The notes beneath the pieces are model-generated. The model searched no databases. It was not told the origin of the DNA and saw nothing but the letters and a program-made list of their open reading frames with translations. Of a stretch of 64,000 nt of DNA, positions 5,127-62,987 are shown piece after piece. Position 1 is the first letter of the stretch, and every line of letters begins with the position of its first letter. The DNA comes from Candidatus Nanopelagicales bacterium. Its GTDB lineage: Bacteria; Actinomycetota; Actinomycetes; Nanopelagicales; Nanopelagicaceae. Both the position numbers and the translations under genes were made by a program. The stretch spans positions 1 through 64,000 of the forward strand of contig JAURGA010000005.1 of NCBI GenBank assembly GCA_030834095.1, given 5' to 3'.

Positions 5127-6218
5127 GTGGTTCATTCCAAGGGAGATTTTTACAACGATGATCCAGCTGAGTCAACTCGTGTCCGAGGAAAGCGAAAATT
5201 TTCATCCGTCCTTGCATTCCTTCTGCTTCTTGCTGGCGGAACTTATTTAGTCCAGACCACGCTTGCCGCTAACATCGCGCTAAACACAGGTTCACCTATT
5301 GAATTTGGTCAAGGTGTAACAGCTACAACAGCATGCTCTGGAGCAACCAACTTAACAATCACACCAAATTCAACTTTCATAAATGTTTCCGCTGGCGGAG
5401 CACATTATCTTTCATCGCTTAGAGTTTCAAATATACCTTCAGGTTGTGATGGCAAGGATTTCACAATAAACGCCTATGGAAATTCGGATAGCACAGCCCT
5501 AGCTGTTTTCAATTCAGCGTCAAAAAACGTAGTTGTTTATAGCAATGCCGGAACATTTGAACTTGGCGCAGGATCCCTTTCTGGAGCAAGCATTACAAGC
5601 GGTTCAGGAACATTCACGGTCACCTTTACAGACCCAGTTGCTACTTCTGGATCAGTGTTTAAGGTCTCCTTGCAAAGTGGAGGACACACAGTTGTATCCT
5701 GTGCAACCGGGGGAGTTTGTGTTGTTGGTAATACCGGTCCTGGTGGTGGCAAAGTCTTTTACGTTGCTAGTTCGCCATTTGCCTGTGGCCCAACAGTTGC
5801 AGCAAGTTGCACTTATCTCGAAGTTGCACCAAGTGATTCCCAAGAAAATTTCTGTGATGCTGGATCTACTGTAGGTGATGCTGGAAGCACGCGCCTTGCA
5901 ACTTTGAATCCAGACACAATTGGTGCTGGATTTGCGAGCACACTTGTAATTACAGCAGGTTGTAATTCGGGCGCTGCCGTTACTTCAAGGGCTTATCGCG
6001 GTGGTTCGTTTAGTGACTGGTATTTGCCAAACCGAGCAGAATTAGTTCAGGTTTACAACAATAGAGTGACAATCGGTGGCTTTATTTCCGCACAATACTG
6101 GCAATCTTATGCGAACAGTTCAACACGATTCACGGCTCATAACTTTGGTGACGGTTATGCATACAATGAATTTCCAAAATCAACTGTGAACCAATTCCGT
6201 CCAATCCGGGCTTTCTAA
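5127..6218 (+). CDS. Secreted or membrane-anchored surface protein with C-terminal DUF1566/Lcl-like domain (paralogue of 61893-62987)
   Basis: N-terminal TM (VLAFLLLLAGGTYLVQTTLAA), GNTGPGGGKVFYV, DWYLPNRAEL, terminal RPIRAF; GTG at 5127 preferred over 5064 from alignment to the paralogue. Confidence 0.75.
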   Translation: MVHSKGDFYNDDPAESTRVRGKRKFSSVLAFLLLLAGGTYLVQTTLAANIALNTGSPIEFGQGVTATTACSGATNLTITPNSTFINVSAGGAHYLSSLRVSNIPSGCDGKDFTINAYGNSDSTALAVFNSASKNVVVYSNAGTFELGAGSLSGASITSGSGTFTVTFTDPVATSGSVFKVSLQSGGHTVVSCATGGVCVVGNTGPGGGKVFYVASSPFACGPTVAASCTYLEVAPSDSQENFCDAGSTVGDAGSTRLATLNPDTIGAGFASTLVITAGCNSGAAVTSRAYRGGSFSDWYLPNRAELVQVYNNRVTIGGFISAQYWQSYANSSTRFTAHNFGDGYAYNEFPKSTVNQFRPIRAF

Positions 6219-61892: not shown

Positions 61893-62987
61893 GTGTCTAA
61901 CCTCGACTTCTACAACGATGACCCAGTCGACTTCAAACGCCCAAAATCGAAGAAGCGCATCTCTGGAGTTCTAGCCCTTATCGCAGCGCTAATTGGTGGC
62001 ACTTTATATATTCAAACTACTCTTGCTGCAAATATCTCACTTAACTCAGGCTCAGTTGAATTTGGTCAAGGTATTACCCAGACCGTTGCCTGCTCGGGAT
62101 CACAATCTTTAACAATAACTCCACTCTCAACTTTTGTTAATGCAAGTGGCGGAGGGTCATATAAGTTCTCCGGAATAACAGTCGATAACATCCCAACTAG
62201 CTGTCAAGATACCGACTTCACCTTCTCTGCCTACAACAACGTTGCTGCAAGCGCAGCGCAAGCGATCTTTAATACTTCAAGTACTAGAGCCGTTGTTTAT
62301 ATGACAAGTACTAACGCATTTGAAGTCGGAACCGGTGGCAGCGGGCTAAGCGTTGCAACAAACTCAGCATCATCATTTACCCTCACCTTCACAGCCCCAG
62401 TTGCCCCATCAAGTGCTGTCAATAAAGTAACTGTTGAGAGCGCAGCGCATACGGCAATCACTTATAACGTAGGAGATACGGGTCCAGGCGGTGGAAAGAT
62501 TTTCTATGTTGCAGATACATCATTTTCTTGCGGTCCAACCCTGAACTTAAGTTGTAATTACCTAGAGGCAGCACCGCCTCTCTGGAATGCTGGTGGGGCA
62601 GACCCCGGTCTAACTTGGGCTCAAAGCACTTATTTCACTACATCCGTCGGCGGAACTGAAACTGGAATCGGTCTGGGTTTTCAAAATACCCGAGCAATTA
62701 TTTTGCAAGGAAATACCGATACTGCCACCTCTGCTGCAGCACTAGCCGATGCATATACGGTCACAGTTTCCGATGTTGTCTATGACGATTGGTATCTGCC
62801 ATCAAAGAATGAACTAAATAATCTTCGGGATAAGCGAGTAACTGTTGGTGGTTTTGCGAACTACTACTACTGGTCTTCATCTCAGTACAATGCGTCCAAT
62901 GCGTGGTCCCATAACTTCTCCCAGGTCAGCCCAACCGCCGTTGGCAAGAACGGCCCCTTCTACATTCGTCCAATTCGAGCTTTTTAG
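61893..62987 (+). CDS. Secreted or membrane-anchored surface protein with C-terminal DUF1566/Lcl-like domain (paralogue of 5127-6218)
   Basis: DFYNDDP N-terminus, TM, GDTGPGGGKIFYV, DWYLPSKNELNNL, YWSSSQYN, terminal RPIRAF. Confidence 0.8.
   Translation: MSNLDFYNDDPVDFKRPKSKKRISGVLALIAALIGGTLYIQTTLAANISLNSGSVEFGQGITQTVACSGSQSLTITPLSTFVNASGGGSYKFSGITVDNIPTSCQDTDFTFSAYNNVAASAAQAIFNTSSTRAVVYMTSTNAFEVGTGGSGLSVATNSASSFTLTFTAPVAPSSAVNKVTVESAAHTAITYNVGDTGPGGGKIFYVADTSFSCGPTLNLSCNYLEAAPPLWNAGGADPGLTWAQSTYFTTSVGGTETGIGLGFQNTRAIILQGNTDTATSAAALADAYTVTVSDVVYDDWYLPSKNELNNLRDKRVTVGGFANYYYWSSSQYNASNAWSHNFSQVSPTAVGKNGPFYIRPIRAF

Follow-up and report, generated by a model that had tools for sequence, protein, structure and literature searches.

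Two DFYNDDP-tagged proteins of a Nanopelagicaceae genome belong to a surface-type protein family with a candidate SipW-like export system

The window, a 64,000-nt stretch of Candidatus Nanopelagicales bacterium contig JAURGA010000005.1 (assembly GCA_030834095.1), carries two open reading frames (ORFs) that encode a DFYNDDP motif, a hydrophobic segment, an EFGQG-containing middle part and an Lcl-like end, just as a reading of the sequence alone had described them (Table 1). The GTG start of the first lies 10 nt downstream of GGGGAG, in a frame that is open from 5064. In the whole genome of 1.36 Mb the coding pattern of DFYNDDP is found at two sites only, one in each of these ORFs; the reversed control pattern occurs 0 times. 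The proteins are 46% identical overall and their motif codons differ synonymously (GATTTTTACAACGATGATCC vs GACTTCTACAACGATGACCC), and the motif is therefore not the trace of a recent duplication.

Table 1. Coordinates of the two window proteins, their parts and the operon signal peptidase.
Feature	Position	Strand	Remarks
Long-form module protein 1	5127..6218	+	363 aa, GTG start; DDP tag, signal segment, EFGQG module, Lcl_C-like C-terminal payload
Protein 1, cytoplasmic tag DFYNDDP	5145..5165	+	
Protein 1, N-terminal extension ANIALNTG..EFGQG and beta module with two invariant Cys	5268..5687	+	From alignments; putative cleavage TLA↓A
Protein 1, Lcl_C-like (DUF1566) C-terminal region	6000..6209	+	18.7 bits, below gathering score alone
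Long-form module protein 2	61893..62987	+	364 aa, GTG start
Protein 2, cytoplasmic tag DFYNDDP	61905..61925	+	
Protein 2, hydrophobic helix (residues 25-40), signal segment	61965..62012	+	AlphaFold2 secondary structure
Protein 2, mature N-terminal extension (residues 46-60) and beta module to KVTVES	62028..62441	+	Putative cleavage
Protein 2, Lcl_C (PF07603) payload domain	62607..62978	+	38.4 bits, over gathering score
Operon signal peptidase	L040:11312-11992		TIGR02228, 63.5 vs cut-off 51.85 bits

The suspected DUF1566/Lcl end is borne out. Protein 2 exceeds the Lcl_C gathering score of 34.9 bits and its model agrees with the solved structure of the Lcl C-terminal domain, 8q4e (E 3.3e-5, TM 0.73 on target), which together make it a member of this family; protein 1 alone falls under the cut-off but aligns with protein 2. 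Structure prediction, proposed for the middle domain, yielded good AlphaFold2 models of module and payload (mean pLDDT 83.6 and 80.9) but no significant fold match of the module in a Foldseek search against the PDB, where beta sandwiches were resembled weakly. Residues 39-54 of protein 2 are unplaced in its model, with pLDDT <50.

Alignments of family members reveal a shared architecture of an N-terminal tail, the hydrophobic segment, a cleavage-type site, x-[IL]-N-S-G, EFGQG, and a beta module in which two Cys are invariant. The putative cleavage site is mostly [ST]-[LF]-[AGS]↓[AGS]-N, with residues of the peptidase type, T at -3 and A/G/S at -1, across the family. A single transmembrane segment had been proposed; one hydrophobic segment is indeed present, but the -3/-1 residues argue against a permanent anchor and make a cleaved signal peptide probable. 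Core B proteins, short relatives described below, end with the module, at the point where payloads start in long forms. The payload is Lcl_C in 22/33 long forms scanned; others are C-type lectin, laminin-G or BNR/sortilin-like domains. Judged from these domain matches, the long forms are composed of the module and an exchangeable lectin- or adhesin-like payload, and the two window proteins are likely surface adhesins. The idea of a sortase finds no counterpart at their C-termini: both end in ...RPIRAF, and sortase-anchored proteins were rejected by inspection, with neither LPxTG nor a C-terminal hydrophobic stretch. Inspection also led us to reject type IV prepilins: a prepilin site is missing ahead of the segment, TLA↓A follows it, and there is no family match.

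A homology search of the whole genome located a third long paralogue on contig C24 and a cluster of short relatives, organised as an operon, on contig C28; long forms are scattered, away from the operon. Relatives are present in numerous genomes of the same genus, with up to 14 copies per genome, and in smaller sets in other Nanopelagicaceae genera. Among 247 genomes of the class, the four with module matches are all Nanopelagicaceae, and the module was found in none of the ~220 genomes outside this family. None of 51 pattern stretches from viral contigs is a relative, and virus-borne module copies were rejected. No Pfam or NCBIfam family matches the module, and literature searches on SipW-dependent signals and on freshwater actinobacterial surface systems yielded nothing relevant and no description of this system. 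The module family and its operon are real and sizeable and, apparently, undescribed.

The proposal of a surface-type protein family with a conserved cytoplasmic N-terminal tag holds up, as 37 distinct relatives carry [YF]-x-D-D/N-P and the motif is not confined to the window pair. These members were selected with that pattern, so invariance of D-D-P among them is by construction; Y occupies -2 in 36/37, and acidic residues often follow. Spacing from tag to FGQG is 47-52 residues in the 37 tagged members, and synonymous codons vary. The motif had been called strictly kept, which calls for a qualification: 28/36 members keep DDP in the module clade of the window proteins (support 98), and in the family as a whole DDP is one of several classes.

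On a module tree built without the N-terminal tail, the tag classes, which were assigned by patterns tuned on the same sequences, require 25 changes vs 63 when shuffled. Two long forms from one genome have the same tag class in 164 of 165 pairs; 2000 shuffles give a mean of 81 and a maximum of 111. Where genome and module neighbours disagree over the tag, the genome is right in 13 cases and the module in 1, most of the 13 discordant cases lying on weakly supported branches and two being well supported. The L066 protein combines a module inside the DDP clade (98) with its genome's own tag, MSLLNF; L106_986 combines a module inside an MxILNF clade (99) with its genome's DDP tag. In some C-core tails the two tag types follow one another (L094:9947, MGILNLGGS...DEYYYDDE), and further tag classes are conserved in the operon's own subunits. 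Tag homogeneity may come partly from species phylogeny and 5' recombination between paralogues. These patterns lend indirect support to the tag as a sorting or assembly signal; it would probably be an address that is matched to the host machinery and read at the membrane.

The operon on C28 has the order P300, A, B, C, signal peptidase, LTWERG multi-pass protein, collagen-like protein, P235, P117, so that three short module proteins lie beside a signal peptidase. A co-occurring processing gene, which the sequence-only reading advised looking for, is thereby found, in the form of a SipW/ER-type signal peptidase encoded next to short relatives. The subunit tags are SPLSG in A, MEIL in B and acidic and Tyr-rich in C (EYFEYTDDPDFEE in this genome); the end of the collagen-like protein resembles the module. 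Similar operon order recurs across several Nanopelagicaceae genera, in some of which C is missing or replaced by other short subunits. The TIGR02228 score and the Ser (SMxP) and His (HRI) catalytic motifs, invariant in 15 orthologues, identify the peptidase as an ER/archaeal-type (SipW-like) signal peptidase I, and it resembles human SEC11A (1.2e-7). It is not Bacillus SipW proper (NF046067, 30.2 bits vs a curated cut-off of 190). Compared with the Bacillus SipW profile, it has ~60 more residues before the catalytic domain; this extension is conserved in the 15 orthologues and may be a candidate tag reader.

Several neighbouring or related loci were noted. Two membrane proteins without a Pfam match (L040:6643-7829) stay next to the operon in several genera, frequently in the opposite orientation. 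A 1134-aa secreted-type protein with fn3 and SUEL rhamnose-binding lectin domains (L040:3185-6589) adjoins a short module protein with a DGDEL tag. Genome G016 carries, on contig C17 (L055:2781-7696), a second, diverged version of the operon. It encodes short proteins, of which one has an N-terminal NSPLGTPRGSG tail, its own peptidase with an N-terminal extension, a membrane protein with LTWQRG, and a fusion of a DnaJ domain to collagen-like repeats.

Across 61 genomes of the family, the LTWERG protein (E<1e-50) is found in 13/15 module-positive and 0/46 module-negative genomes (Fisher 1.6e-11, kinship ignored). In G009 a single contig (L133, G009:C5) joins both operon flanks, with ~12.5 kb including the core operon missing relative to L040:2740-15253; on either side of the junction lie the truncated remains of a DGDEL-tag gene and of a P300 gene. 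As read from this MAG contig, G009 has lost the operon by a clean natural deletion, and its sole surviving DDP gene stops at the module, without a payload. The complete genome G195 has a single intact DDP-tagged long form (L132:8488-10026, a 513 aa frame with a BNR/sortilin-like payload) and neither the system peptidase nor the LTWERG protein. G004, which is 79% complete, has seven module proteins, and the same two components are absent. Either the machinery is not always needed, or the module genes in G195 and G004 are relics or newcomers.

With moderate confidence, we interpret the window proteins as payload-bearing substrates of the SipW-type surface system on C28, which would be addressed by their tags, cleaved, assembled and displayed as adhesins. 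Each protein would be made with the DFYNDDP address tag, a basic patch and one hydrophobic signal segment, exported presumably by Sec, and cut after T-L-A, the predicted site, by the ER/archaeal-type signal peptidase of the operon. The freed N-terminus, ANIxLNSGxxEFGQG, would then serve as an assembly strand linking the protein to the core subunits at the cell surface, so that the lectin-like domain at its C-terminus, here Lcl_C, would be displayed as an adhesin; the unplaced N-terminal stretch of the AlphaFold2 model is compatible with TasA-like strand donation. Most likely the system itself would read the tag, on the cytoplasmic side of the membrane, with the peptidase's additional N-terminal domain or the multi-pass LTWERG protein as candidate readers, and the tag would route the window proteins to the system and away from the housekeeping peptidase. 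More tentatively, the tags could constitute a cytoplasmic address code, read by the accessory domain of the ER-type peptidase or by its LTWERG partner, that routes scattered lectin-payload genes to one surface fibre, such that any protein entering a genome must take the tag of that genome; we regard this specific form as possible rather than probable.

As a rival explanation, the proteins would be ordinary Sec-exported adhesins: any signal peptidase could cut them, and the motif would be kept only by common descent and 5' recombination within genomes. The clustering of tag classes on the module tree, the intact tagged gene that G195 retains without the system, and the dispersal of long forms away from the operon all fit this explanation, yet it does not readily account for near-fixed tag spacing alongside free synonymous codons, the genome-matched tags of L066 and L106_986 despite their well-supported module placements, the conservation of more tag classes in the operon subunits, or the co-occurrence of module and LTWERG protein, and we consider it rather unlikely. 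Uncleaved signal-anchored proteins, in which the tag is a lasting cytoplasmic tail for localisation or signalling and the segment a permanent membrane anchor, are improbable given that T and A/G/S occupy -3/-1 throughout and that a dedicated peptidase adjoins relatives; such proteins would explain a conserved hydrophilic tail ahead of a single hydrophobic segment and the lack, on inspection, of any other anchor, be it LPxTG or a C-terminal hydrophobic segment.

It is equally improbable that the proteins are genuine but highly diverged TasA/CalY fibre proteins, served by a SipW peptidase. They share the gene logic, short beta-rich subunits adjoining a SipW-like peptidase, and a free mature N-terminus like that of TasA, whose N-terminal strand goes to the next subunit (PMC9674648). 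Against membership, the module matches no sequence family and has no profile match among PDB sequences, and TasA is absent among the Foldseek matches listed; by sequence and fold we therefore rejected it. Within our preferred reading, of tagged substrates of a SipW-type system, a function of the tag is a good hypothesis that can be tested.

The genomes of freshwater Nanopelagicaceae are streamlined. The presence of as many as 14 module genes in a genome of 1.3 Mb, many of them encoding lectin-like payloads, suggests that it is important for these bacteria to vary their surface adhesion or to evade grazers and phages. If the tags are read, they would represent a new way of sorting exported proteins, and the substrate choice of a SipW-type peptidase would become directly testable.

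Three known systems invite comparison. Legionella Lcl is a type II secreted trimer whose C-terminal domain is a trimeric glycosaminoglycan-binding domain (PMC11162425); the likeness lies in the C-terminal Lcl_C/DUF1566 payload domain and the presence of a collagen-like protein in the operon, whereas the window proteins have no collagen stalk and Lcl_C sits on the EFGQG module. The Sulfolobus thread filament protein Saci_0406 is, as is proposed for the proteins described here, a predicted signal peptidase I substrate that assembles by strand complementation, but it is archaeal and has no detected sequence relation, and the parts of its description consulted (PMC9715654) mention neither a tag nor a dedicated peptidase. 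TasA fibres assemble via an N-terminal donor strand, and SipW cuts the signals of TasA and TapA (PMC9674648). Both TasA-SipW-TapA of Bacillus and CalY-SipW have small beta-rich subunits beside an ER/archaeal-type signal peptidase and, after a signal segment, a free stretch at the N-terminus. By the sequence and fold tests made, which found no relation of the EFGQG module to TasA/CalY, the system described here would work like a SipW-type surface system without being a TasA member, and it differs in its cytoplasmic tags, the extra N-terminal domain of its peptidase, the LTWERG and collagen-like proteins of its operon, and its payload-bearing paralogues elsewhere in the genome.
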